Origin: Brevundimonas sp. LM2
GTDB lineage: Bacteria; Pseudomonadota; Alphaproteobacteria; Caulobacterales; Caulobacteraceae
Direction of reading: 5' to 3'
DNA length: 64,000 bases
NCBI RefSeq assembly: GCF_002002865.1
Contig: NZ_CP019508.1
Location: 806,001-870,000 of the forward strand
Part shown: positions 9,733 through 32,900 of the stretch, one piece after another
Layout of the letters: each line of letters opens with the position of its first letter
Numbering within the stretch: position 1 is the first letter of the stretch
Translations under genes and position numbers: made by a program
The notes under the pieces: generated by a model
What the model was told of the DNA's origin: nothing
Database searches by the model: none
What the model saw: the letters and a program-made list of their open reading frames with translations, nothing else

Positions 9733-9807
9733 TCCAACACTATCCCAAGGCGGTACAAATCGCCCTTCCACGGCGAGGCGATGCAGGAGGCGTGCCGTCT
9801 TCATAAA

Positions 9808-9888
9808 CCCTCTCCCCCTGCGGGAGAGGGAGAGCGCGCACGGCGGCGCAGCCGTCGTCCTGGCGCGCTCGGGTGAGGGGTGAAACTC
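9808..9888. repeat. REP-like element, left copy
   Basis: A hairpin with 9-bp arms (CCCTCTCCC, 5-base loop, GGGAGAGGG; 9808-9830) followed about 40 bases later by a 19-bp end sequence (9870-9888) that reappears inverted, with one mismatch, at 10273-10291. The two copies face each other around the DUF559 gene. Confidence 0.75.
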
Positions 9889-15056: not shown

Positions 15057-15581
15057 TCACTGGAAGAAGTCCTGGGAAGCGCTCATCCGCTGTGGGATTG
15101 CATCCGTGCTCGCGGACCGCTCGACCGCCGGTGGCGCGACGATCGCGCCTCTGTCGAAGCCGAACAGGCGCGATCCGTCGGCCAGGGGGTCTGTGCTCGT
15201 GATGACGGAATCTTCGGTCGGTGCGGATGGCATCGCGTGCGTCTGCGGTTCCGCAGCTGACGGCGGTGGCGACCAGTCCGACCCCGTATAGGCCTCCTGC
15301 GGCGCATAGGGCGTGTCCGTCATCTCGAGCTGCCGCTCCAGGACCGCGCGGTCAAACTCGTCGCTTAGCGTGCCCACCTCCAAAACGCCTCCCTCGACGA
15401 GGACCGGCTCGCGGGGCGGCACGACGGCGATCGACAACCGCGGACCTGGACCGGACGCGTTTGACTCGCGAGGCGCGACGCTCCAGGCCGCGACGCCAAG
15501 CGATAAGGCCGCGACAAGGGCGGTGCACACGACTACCGACGCCCGTCTTGCAGGCGATCGCGCTGGCGGCATGGTCTTCAT
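15057..15581 (-). CDS. Hypothetical membrane-anchored protein
   Basis: A 174-residue protein I do not recognise. A basic N-terminus is followed by one hydrophobic segment (SVVVCTALVAALSLGVAAW, about residues 15-33), so it is a signal-anchored or secreted protein with a proline/serine/acid-rich, probably disordered, periplasmic part. No catalytic motif is visible. The ATG at 15581 has GAGGAG 8 bases upstream, good support for a real gene. It lies 135 bases upstream of the TonB receptor on the same strand. Confidence 0.6.
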   Translation of the reverse strand: MKTMPPARSPARRASVVVCTALVAALSLGVAAWSVAPRESNASGPGPRLSIAVVPPREPVLVEGGVLEVGTLSDEFDRAVLERQLEMTDTPYAPQEAYTGSDWSPPPSAAEPQTHAMPSAPTEDSVITSTDPLADGSRLFGFDRGAIVAPPAVERSASTDAIPQRMSASQDFFQ

Positions 15582-15709: not shown

Positions 15710-16393
15710 CTATCTGGCGATCAGCAACGGCCCCAGCGCCGAACCGGCCGGGATCCGCCGGGCCCAGGCGGCGCCTTCGGCCGCCCAGCCGCGGTCGATG
15801 TCGAAACTCACCGCCCGGGCCTTGGCTCCGGAGAAGTCGATCAAGAGACCGGGTCCGAAGGCGGTCTCCACGACGGACCCAAGGGGCGTCGAATCGGTGG
15901 CGAAAACCGCCACGATCCGGTCCGTGGGGGCGAGCATGCCCATGCCGTGACCGTGCAGGGGAAAGGCACAGATCGGGGCCATCTCGCCGGCAAGGGTCCG
16001 ACAGAGGCCCCAGGTCCAGGCTTCCTCGCCATCATTGATCAGGGCGGCGACGCCCGGAAGGCCTGAAGCGAATGCGGTCAGCAGCCGGGTGTCGTTCAAA
16101 CGGGCCGTTTGACCGAGCGCGACCTCGACCCGCGCCCCGACCCCGACGACGGCGTTCGGTTCTATTGCCGTCGGGGACAGATAGACGCTGAGGTCGTCCC
16201 CGAACGCGATGGTTGTCGTCTGCAACAGGTTGGTTCGTCTCATCCACGCCAGGGAGGTGCCGCCGGCTGTCCCTAGCGCACTGGACGCAAATGGGCCCTG
16301 TCGAACGGCGGCGAACAGGTACAGCGCCATGTTCTCGCGGTGCAACGCGGGCACCGTGGGACTGGAAAGCGTCACGGTCAGGTGTCGGGTCAC
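15710..16393 (-). CDS. Uncharacterised 227-residue protein, paralog B
   Basis: Unknown function. It is paralogous to the product of 16759-17442: the same order of blocks is seen, including an initial strand (HLTVTLSS vs YVIEISLP), a central LGQTA, CAFPLHG (CAIPLHG), and a C-terminal block GLLIDFSGAK...VSFDIDRGW...LGPLLIAR. No signal peptide or membrane segment, so probably soluble and beta-rich. The GTG at 16393, with GAGG about 6 bases upstream, gives exactly 227 residues, the same as the paralog. It is the last gene of a three-gene run behind an XRE regulator. Confidence 0.75.
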   Translation of the reverse strand: MTRHLTVTLSSPTVPALHRENMALYLFAAVRQGPFASSALGTAGGTSLAWMRRTNLLQTTTIAFGDDLSVYLSPTAIEPNAVVGVGARVEVALGQTARLNDTRLLTAFASGLPGVAALINDGEEAWTWGLCRTLAGEMAPICAFPLHGHGMGMLAPTDRIVAVFATDSTPLGSVVETAFGPGLLIDFSGAKARAVSFDIDRGWAAEGAAWARRIPAGSALGPLLIAR

Positions 16394-16416
16394 GAGAGCC
16401 TCGCAGACGATCCGTC

Positions 16417-16439
16417 GGGGCGAGGAAAGCCCTCGCCCC
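16417..16439. other. Strong intergenic hairpin
   Basis: A perfect 9-bp GC-rich stem (GGGGCGAGG / CCTCGCCCC) with a 5-base loop lies in the 53-base gap between the 80-residue gene and paralog B. No U-tract follows on the minus strand, so it is more likely an attenuator, RNA-stability element or partial terminator than a full terminator. Confidence 0.6.
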
Positions 16440-16446
16440 AACGGAC

Positions 16447-16689
16447 TCAGTAGGTGCAGGACAGGCCAGACGTCGTTTGGTTCGTGATGGTCAGCGTATT
16501 GTCGACCACCCGCACCGTGAAGGTGTGGACCTTGTTGTCGTCCATGGGCACGACGACTTCAGGCGCGTTGGCCAGCGTGTACCTGACATTGCCGGTGGCG
16601 GGGTGTGTGGTGATCACATCGACGTTGCCGGGGATGGTATGGGCGGCGAACGTGTGTGCCTGGCCCTTCAGGATGACGGTCTGAGGCAT
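16447..16689 (-). CDS. Uncharacterised 80-residue protein
   Basis: Not recognised. The sequence alternates hydrophobic and polar residues (VILKGQAHTF, DVITTHPATGNVRYTL, HTFTVRVVDNTLTITN), which predicts a small all-beta protein. One cysteine near the C-terminus (SCTY). The ATG at 16689 has AAGGA 8 bases upstream. It lies between two paralogous 227-residue genes on the same strand, 69 bases after paralog A, and is probably cotranscribed with them. A secreted or complex-forming partner role is only a guess. Confidence 0.7.
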   Translation of the reverse strand: MPQTVILKGQAHTFAAHTIPGNVDVITTHPATGNVRYTLANAPEVVVPMDDNKVHTFTVRVVDNTLTITNQTTSGLSCTY

Positions 16690-16758
16690 CGGGATAATCC
16701 TTGATAGAGGAAAGATGCGGCCGCCCGGTGGCGGGCGTGCCAGCGAGCCGGACGGAGG

Positions 16759-17442
16759 TCAGCTGTGGATCAGAAGGGGCACCAGGTCGGCCTGCGCCTT
16801 GATCGGCGTGGCCCAGGTGCCGTCGTCCCAGCTCCAGCCCTCGTTGATGTCGAAATTGACCTTGCGCGTGCTCTTTTCAGTCAGGTCGATGAGCAGGCTC
16901 GGGGCGTAGGCCTTGTAGATCACCGTGCCGGTGTTCACGGTTCTGGAGGCGAAGGTCAGGAGAACCTTCTCGATCGGCACCACGACGTCCAGCATGTTGC
17001 CGTGCAACGGGATCGCGCACATCGGATTGGCCGATCCAGCGACCTTCTGAGAGATGCCCGCCGTGTATTGCGTGCTGCTTTCGTTCAAGATCGAGATAGC
17101 GGATGCCGTTCCCTCGCTGACCGTCTCCAGGTTTCCGTCCACGTCGACATTCGCCGTCTGCCCGAGCGTGATGTCAGCGGCCGCGCTGGCCACGATGGTA
17201 CCGTCCGAGATGATCTTGGTGTCGGAGATATAGGCCTGGTACTGCTCGGTCCACGCCACCTTGGTGGTGGTCAGGAAACTCGGGTCAGAGAACCAAACGA
17301 GGGGCGCCGCTCCGCCGATCCTGCTCTTGACGGCCTTGAAACCATGAAGGGCGAACTTTTCGCCCTTCAGCGCTGTCACGGTGTCGGAGGGAAGGGAGAT
17401 CTCGATCACATAAGGCGTGGGCGTGGGTTCGGGCGTGGGCAT
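16759..17442 (-). CDS. Uncharacterised 227-residue protein, paralog A
   Basis: Unknown function. After a Pro/Thr-rich start (MPTPEPTPTP) the body runs YVIEISLPSDTVTALKGEKF, GFKAVKS, APLVWFSD, a central ITLGQTANVDVDGN, CAIPLHGNMLDVVVPIEKVL and the C-terminal LLIDLTEKSTRKVNFDINEG. The spacing of predicted strands suggests a beta-sandwich. No signal peptide. The ATG at 17442 has AGGAGAG 7-8 bases upstream and gives the same length as paralog B. A perfect 31-bp palindrome lies 77 bases upstream, and an XRE regulator gene precedes that. Confidence 0.78.
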   Translation of the reverse strand: MPTPEPTPTPYVIEISLPSDTVTALKGEKFALHGFKAVKSRIGGAAPLVWFSDPSFLTTTKVAWTEQYQAYISDTKIISDGTIVASAAADITLGQTANVDVDGNLETVSEGTASAISILNESSTQYTAGISQKVAGSANPMCAIPLHGNMLDVVVPIEKVLLTFASRTVNTGTVIYKAYAPSLLIDLTEKSTRKVNFDINEGWSWDDGTWATPIKAQADLVPLLIHS

Positions 17443-17518
17443 GGCTTCTCTCCTGATGGAGATGGCCCCGGCCGGGCCGGGCATGAATGGCGGAATGCAA
17501 CTCACGAGATAATGATCT

Positions 17519-17549
17519 CATGAAAATCTACCTAAGGTAGATTTTCATG
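17519..17549. promoter_or_regulatory. Perfect 31-bp palindrome, candidate operator
   Basis: Two perfect 15-base arms (first arm CATGAAAATCTACCT) around a single central base. It is AT-rich compared with its surroundings and lies between the XRE regulator gene and paralog A, 77 bases before the start of the latter. A second short inverted repeat (TTGCG-CCGGA-CGCAA, 17550-17564) abuts it. Likely binding site of the XRE protein; a transcript hairpin is the alternative. Confidence 0.7.
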
Positions 17550-17594
17550 TTGCGCCGGACGCAAGATCATTAGTTGTTTGATGCGGCTCACGCT

Positions 17595-17948
17595 TCAGTA
17601 TCTCGTCTTGCCAGCCTGAATCAGCCTCACGAGGCCGAGCAGGGCGGCGATCGCTTCGAGGGCCACATGTTCTGGAAGTTCGGACAGAAGCTCTCGGATC
17701 CCTCGAGACACGGGTGTGTCGTCGTCCCGGTGGCCGTCGATATGTCCGCGCCCGGTCAGGAGCCAGTCCAGGGACACGTCCAGAGCCCGGCTGAGATTCA
17801 CGGCGTTGTCGAGCGAAATGGATCGCCCTCGCCGCCACCGACTTATGGCGCTTTCGTCGACGCCCAGCTCGACCGCCAGCGCATATGACTTATGGACCGC
17901 CCGCGCCTCGAGCGCCTGAGCGAACCGTTCCTCCCAACCTTGCATCAT
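17595..17948 (-). CDS. XRE-family transcriptional regulator
   Basis: A 117-residue protein with a phage-repressor-like helix-turn-helix at about residues 7-65: WEERFAQALEARAV, then KSYALAVELGVDESAISRWRRG with recognition helix ESAISRWRR, and LSRALDVSLDWLLTGRG. The C-terminal half is a short helical segment without the LexA/CI peptidase residues. The ATG at 17948 follows an AGGGGG ribosome-binding sequence. It lies just upstream of the palindrome and the three-gene cassette on the same strand, so control of that cassette, and of itself, is the natural inference. Confidence 0.85.
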   Translation of the reverse strand: MMQGWEERFAQALEARAVHKSYALAVELGVDESAISRWRRGRSISLDNAVNLSRALDVSLDWLLTGRGHIDGHRDDDTPVSRGIRELLSELPEHVALEAIAALLGLVRLIQAGKTRY

Positions 17949-18050
17949 CAAACCCCCTGAGAGCCGTCGCGGGGGGTCCGGACGGCCATCCGGTGGTAGA
18001 ACGTTAAGAGAACAAGGTGGCGTGGGGCGTAGCGCTGAGGTCGGCGCGGC

Positions 18051-19514: not shown

Positions 19515-19542
19515 TTCTCCCTCCCCGAGCGGGGAGGGAGAA
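19515..19542. repeat. REP-like hairpin
   Basis: A perfect 12-bp stem (TTCTCCCTCCCC / GGGGAGGGAGAA) with a 4-base loop between the GIN-domain gene and tldD. It shares the CTCCC-rich arms of the other REP-like hairpins at 9.8, 10.3 and 46.1-46.3 kb. Confidence 0.65.
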
Positions 19543-32864: not shown

Positions 32865-32900
32865 GTGACGCGGCGAAGGTCACCGCGGTGACCTTCGCGC

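Follow-up and report, generated by a model that had tools for sequence, protein, structure and literature searches.

A stretch of 64,000 nucleotides from Brevundimonas sp. LM2 (contig NZ_CP019508.1, positions 806,001 to 870,000; hereafter the window) carries a cassette of four genes on the minus strand, encoding an XRE-family regulator and the proteins P1, P2 and P3, together with a perfect palindrome (Table 1). A preliminary description of the window had pointed out these five elements, and all were present at the positions claimed. Comparative analysis revealed that P1 and P3 belong to an undescribed protein family and that the P1/P3 pair is the unit of inheritance. Our tentative explanation is that the cassette encodes a non-enzymatic heteromeric assembly, made on demand, with a conserved major subunit, exchangeable adaptors and a fast-evolving minor subunit.

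Table 1. Features of the cassette in the window
Feature	Position	Strand	Description
XRE-family regulator	17595..17951	-	118 residues; first cassette gene; HTH_3 5.9e-10, Phage_CI_repr 9.8e-9
Palindrome, 15-1-15, perfect	17519..17549		Candidate operator; in the XRE-P1 spacer
P1, first paralog	16759..17442	-	227 residues; conserved, presumed major; predicted beta-sandwich with one N-terminal helix
P2, small jelly-roll protein	16447..16689	-	80 residues; presumed P1 adaptor
Intercistronic RNA hairpin	16411..16445	-	Directly 3' of the P2 stop codon, 5' of P3
P3, second paralog	15710..16393	-	227 residues; GTG start; fast-evolving, presumed minor

The P1/P3 pair as the unit of inheritance

P1 and P3 are paralogs with 33% identity over 221 aligned columns (E 5e-43), as previously claimed. 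The preliminary description had also laid weight on their equal length of 227 residues. This length holds with the starts chosen here (ATG at 17442 for P1; GTG at 16393 for P3, whose GTGACCCG context was found again in locus L003); the starts given by the open reading frame (ORF) tool lie further upstream and yield 248 residues for P1 and 243 for P3. As a meaningful trait, however, the equality is a coincidence, because the nearest relative (L003) has 222 and 227 residues with equivalent starts, the P1 N terminus exceeds those of close homologs by five residues and P3 holds an eight-residue insert in the alignment. Equal length was therefore rejected as evidence.

The survey covered 32 genome loci, 28 of which hold two copies in tandem on the same strand. 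On a 65-row tree first and second copies fall for the most part into separate lineages, and their labels change five times, compared with a mean of 21.8 changes for shuffled labels (0 of 500 shuffles as low). Pair distances were analysed for 30 loci (28 genome loci, one plasmid locus and the window); tree and distance work excluded L034, which consists of fragments, and the second copy of L035, which is decayed. Median identity was 48% for first copies, 28% for second copies and 34% for the two copies within one locus, and all 435 locus comparisons showed the second copy to be the less conserved one. The distance matrices of first and second copies were correlated (Spearman 0.61; 0 of 2000 permutations as high). 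Correlated divergence together with unequal conservation of the copies is what a co-inherited functional pair predicts.

Chelatococcus is placed beside Halomonadaceae in both the first-copy and the second-copy parts of the tree, and this double placement suggests that the whole pair was transferred between hosts. A Nitrosomonas metagenome-assembled genome stands beside alphaproteobacteria in the second-copy part. In Rhizobium sp. NXC14 (L035, 6844-7404) the second copy is down to a 21-bit remnant and the first copy is intact.

A family without annotation and its distribution

Searches with P1 identified 316 homologs at E<=0.001 among 1059 candidates. Architectures were counted for the best 120 of the 316, the window's own protein included: 71 represent the core alone, 43 carry an N-terminal extension (some of these may reflect over-long gene calls), five a C-terminal extension and one both. 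In homolog P0046 an XRE domain runs in frame into the core, and the stretches upstream of the core in L009 and L032 are N-terminal extensions. Located family members come from Pseudomonadota, Acidobacteriota, Actinomycetota and Myxococcota, and profile comparison joins a distant branch to the family (98.8% probability, E 5e-17).

The earlier suggestion of an undescribed family was borne out, with no accepted match to the paralogs in Pfam, NCBIfam, PHROGs or PADLOC. Neither P1 nor P2 passes a cut-off in Pfam, NCBIfam or PADLOC, nor does the distant branch in Pfam or NCBIfam. The best Pfam row for P3 is RemA-like (PF04025), with 17.4 bits over 46 residues and no match for P1; as the P3 score lies under the curated cut-off of 26, membership was rejected. 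The best PHROGs match was at E 0.11 for P1 and P2, with nothing for P3. A tblastn search of 50,697 phage records found no relatives, and none of eight pattern matches on viral contigs is a relative; with all three sources negative, a phage origin of the cassette was rejected. A profile built from second copies found 24 proteins, none with a function. Word searches of the literature found no paper on the family, and nameless sequence families escape such searches. Several hundred proteins from at least four bacterial phyla, plus the distant branch, are part of a family that has no annotation in the searched libraries.

Among relatives the P1-family cassette is scarce. It was found in three of 150 relatives, in 2 of 385 at class level and in 6 of 398 at phylum level, own genome included in each count and most of the remainder at the last two levels representing the distant branch. 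Such patchiness would fit an anti-phage or other conflict cassette under XRE control at a variable site, as would its insertion between tldD and traB, where five inspected genomes lack it, and the match of the XRE protein to PADLOC RmrA (1.5e-6, in the helix-turn-helix (HTH) only). This explanation is nevertheless very unlikely, since P1, P2, P3 and the fused forms P0012 and P0100 have no PADLOC match at E<=1, neither an enzymatic signature nor phage relatives were found, and defence neighbours were not seen among the gene clusters of related loci.

Fifteen plasmid records, from Rhizobium, Skermanella and Vibrio, match the family. On two Skermanella plasmids (L036 and L086) the pair adjoins a 4'-phosphopantetheinyl transferase gene and a nonribosomal peptide synthetase gene. 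The Vibrio plasmids carry a single distant relative (20-24%; L037 6737-7465 and L038 6998-7723) among DUF917, racemase and Rid-family genes. As the preliminary description had stated, P1, P2 and P3 lack signal peptides, as judged by a crude hydropathy screen only. Some family members may be exported. Homolog P0097 has a twin-arginine (Tat)-like N terminus, and the N terminus of a second copy in L019 (1425-2282) is secretory-looking by eye.

P2 as an optional partner of P1

In nine of the 32 loci a P2-like gene of 78-80 residues separates the paralogs, and six P1 homologs (among the best 120) carry a C-terminal extension that matches P2 at E 2e-7 to 0.019. Because P2 is both fused and intercalated in this way, it is read as a partner of the first paralog; judged by these sequence relations, it is a real but optional one, and the C-terminal fusion to P1 is the best single argument that P2 works with the paralogs. 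A protein search with P2 found itself alone among two candidates, and among 101 relative genomes P2 was present in two, its own and the cassette-bearing G041. The earlier impression that P2 looks all-beta is backed by the predicted model of a fused P1 homolog.

A hairpin before the second gene

The hairpin between P2 and P3 has 16 pairs (arms 16411-16425 and 16431-16445), and the 63-nucleotide spacer folds at -38.2 kcal/mol (z -4.2; 1 of 200 shuffles as low). Related loci were assessed by a local test, in which the best 36- or 50-base fold was compared with 40 dinucleotide shuffles; the test covered loci with two copies, other than L035, L037 and L038. A hairpin at z<-2 was found before the second gene in 23 of 30 loci; at the control positions this level was reached in 6 of 30 loci upstream of the first gene, in 6 of 30 downstream of the second gene and in 1 of 10 between the first gene and P2, with test and control stretches unequal in length and related loci non-independent. 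No match was found in Rfam. By eye, a T-run follows the stem in L004, L010, L031 and L033. The window lacks such a run, so that the hairpin could equally well be a leaky terminator or an element for processing or stabilisation.

The position of the hairpin just before the second gene suggests unequal dosage of P1 and P3. The ratio of subunits is reportedly set by stem-loops of this kind between genes (PMC4423207).

Regulators and the palindrome

An XRE relative precedes the first paralog in eight loci, a count that rests on one gene cluster of eight loci. XRE matches among the 101 relative genomes were limited to its own genome, G041 (61%) and a weak match (29%) in G128. Analysis of the upstream region in five further loci revealed other regulators: AraC-type in L022 and L032, a LuxR-type response regulator in L009, a sigma-54 activator in L029 and, in L005, an HTH-AAA-TPR protein about 2 kb off with an oxidoreductase gene intervening.

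Among the perfect inverted repeats found in the window with spacers of 0-6, the palindrome is the longest; 20 sequences of 64 kb simulated with a first-order Markov model had arms of at most 11. The genome contains one exact match to the 17-bp core of the palindrome. Eleven of 13 bases of the core CTACCT-N-AGGT-N-G were found in L003 at 7895, and a search of the remaining seven loci with an XRE relative did not find it. A scan for inverted repeats 5' of the first gene in 33 related loci gave arms of 8-11 at best, or no repeat that passed, and the palindrome was rejected as a conserved signature for lack of a comparable repeat. Its position and the one relative, L003, point to a candidate operator that the XRE protein may bind. 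Other perfect inverted repeats in the window, with 13-base arms, lie at 2904-2933, 19515-19542 and 32873-32898.

The absence of both P2 and the XRE gene from most loci could also mean that P1 and P3 alone form the functional pair, P2 and XRE being incidental neighbours and the palindrome merely a transcribed hairpin; the palindrome does fold as RNA too and is unconserved beyond its core. We regard this as rather improbable, given that a P2-like domain is fused to P1, that neither P2 nor XRE was found outside the cassette in the 101 relatives, bar the 29% XRE match, and that the complete XRE-P1-P2-P3 order is kept in five of the 32 loci (L003, L004, L012, L031 and L033).

Predicted structure and conserved residues

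The P1 model has a predicted local distance difference test score (pLDDT) of 96.4 and a predicted template modelling score (pTM) of 0.91. No convincing PDB match was found among the matches listed for it (Foldseek, VIA), and searches for PDB relatives by sequence profile found none, or only matches at E 0.78-0.79. With a model of such confidence and no clear match in the PDB, P1 is a good target for structure determination. Invariant positions in a 22-row alignment are chiefly glycine, tryptophan, proline and hydrophobic residues; invariant histidine, cysteine and glutamic acid are absent from it. We infer that P1 and P3 are non-enzymatic.

Genomic surroundings

In the window, L003, L004, L031 and L033 the cassette immediately follows tldD and precedes a TonB receptor gene, with traB intervening between cassette and receptor in L003, L004 and L033; in L011, P1 stands alone between tldD and traB. 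Six of 18 same-genus genomes without the cassette were compared, and five of them show the order tldD-traB-TonB. In the remaining locus, L087 (G001), traB and TonB are both absent within 6 kb, and two tldD pieces follow tldD (1923-2119), which looks like a recombination scar. A 174-residue ORF without a family match (window 15057-15581) occupies the place of the relatives' traB, and a 38% relative of it follows traB in L003. In L004 the last 133 bases of tldD are repeated (79%) downstream of the cassette (9733-9856).

Gene clusters present in at least three loci comprise the family itself, regulators, Brevundimonas tldD-side genes, genes shared among Halomonadaceae and unannotated ORFs; these gene calls are rough, many ORFs being antisense artefacts of GC-rich DNA. 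Recurrent neighbours other than regulators were rejected because evidence for them was lacking. Distant hosts encode, upstream of the pair, two unannotated proteins of 180-188 residues that are related to each other (27%; L017 5807-6346 and L030 4984-5547).

Proposed assembly

In the assembly that we tentatively favour, two paralogous beta-sandwich proteins, made when the regulator allows, would form a complex. P1 would be the conserved major subunit, and the P2 jelly-roll would dock on it as an exchangeable adaptor; in relatives, a P2-like domain fused to the C terminus or a different domain at the N terminus may fill this place. P3 would be the fast-evolving minor subunit that gives specificity. 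The hairpin between P2 and P3 would lower or uncouple P3 expression, leaving P1 and P2 in excess, and the XRE protein would control the operon, probably by binding the palindrome. It may work in the cytoplasm or after release, forming a binding or coat-like structure directed at another organism or a surface. Its role may thus be an outward one or one of accumulation, comparable to that of PixA and AidA.

Several observations weigh against this explanation. Four genome loci lack an intact pair (single copies in L011, L014 and L025, fragments in L034), so the first gene may act alone. The split between first and second copies on the tree is not perfectly clean: several second copies are long-branched, the bootstrap is unsettled and both copies of the Skermanella pair group together. 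P2 is lacking in 19 of the 28 paired loci and an XRE relative in 24 of the 32. Regarding the hairpin, folding of the entire spacer gave z<-2 in two of seven loci (the window and L004), with z -0.7 to -2.0 in the other five; L015 and L028 show no hairpin in the local test, no U-run accompanies the hairpin in the window, and a scan for terminators is empty on its strand. The unequal stretches and the relatedness of loci in the local test count in the same direction.

The same numbers decide how much of the preliminary description holds. It had proposed that the three products cooperate in a layout of one operator, one regulator and three genes. Cooperation gains from the co-inheritance of the pair and from the fusion of P2 to P1, but the four-part layout has to be given up as the defining unit: the neighbourhood survey found that the pair recurs and that the paralogs also occur scattered, without the small gene or an XRE partner.

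It is possible, although doubtful, that P1 and P3 represent a new structural family, namely an inducible two-subunit assembly based on a beta-sandwich that has no relative of solved structure, with interchangeable adaptors on the conserved subunit, a fast-varying second subunit and a hairpin-set ratio, whose pairs have spread between classes. Pairing, fusions and hairpin turn anonymous 'hypothetical proteins' into a testable multi-subunit system.

Comparison with known systems

Aegerolysin/partner systems consist of signal-less beta-sandwich proteins that act in pairs, features that the P1/P3 cassette would share. A two-component membrane-active or lectin-like pair of this kind, released by lysis or by a dedicated exporter and directed against competitors or grazers, seems unlikely here; in contrast to aegerolysins and two-component pore formers, P1, P2 and P3 have no such Pfam row at E<=1. 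Nucleoplasmin/HDT proteins and small cupin-like jelly-rolls resemble P2 in predicted structure only, the fold being a common one. No relation of P2 to the PDB was found by sequence, and no conserved metal-binding set is visible in a 10-row alignment of P2.

PixA and AidA are encoded by operon neighbours under quorum-sensing control; they are dimeric, have 173-191 residues and are beta-rich with one short N-terminal helix at residues 13-21 (PMC9060813, excerpted text). The model of the fused P1 homolog likewise predicts a strand at 4-11 and then a helix at 13-21. The missing signal peptides of P1, P2 and P3 and the varied regulators among loci also fit a PixA/AidA-like lifestyle, in which tandem, cytosolic, regulated beta-rich paralogs build up in stationary phase or assemble into inclusions, with effects on gene expression or other organisms. 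We consider such a lifestyle improbable for the cassette. Pfam scans gave no PF12306 match for P1, P3 or their relatives, and none anywhere in the Brevundimonas genome, and profile comparison gave 0.1% probability, a weak test with three PixA rows only. The PixA structure 4lzk is not among the 50 matches listed for the P1 model (Foldseek, VIA), a listing from which related families may be missing. Membership in PixA is thus not supported by PF12306 or by profile comparison, and the likeness lies in lifestyle and perhaps in fold. As far as the excerpted text of PMC9060813 describes them, PixA and AidA share with P1 and P3 the tandem paralogs, the beta-rich build, the short N-terminal helix, the missing signal peptide and dedicated regulators. 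Unlike PixA and AidA, P1 and P3 are about 40 residues longer and come with adaptor domains and an intercistronic hairpin, and no sequence or profile relation was found.

The hairpin compares with the selective RNA processing and stabilisation hairpins of PMC4423207, within what its excerpted text covers. It differs from them in being known from sequence alone and in that hairpin sequences vary among clades; what they have in common is an intergenic stem-loop between the genes of presumed partners, with a proposed control of stoichiometry.
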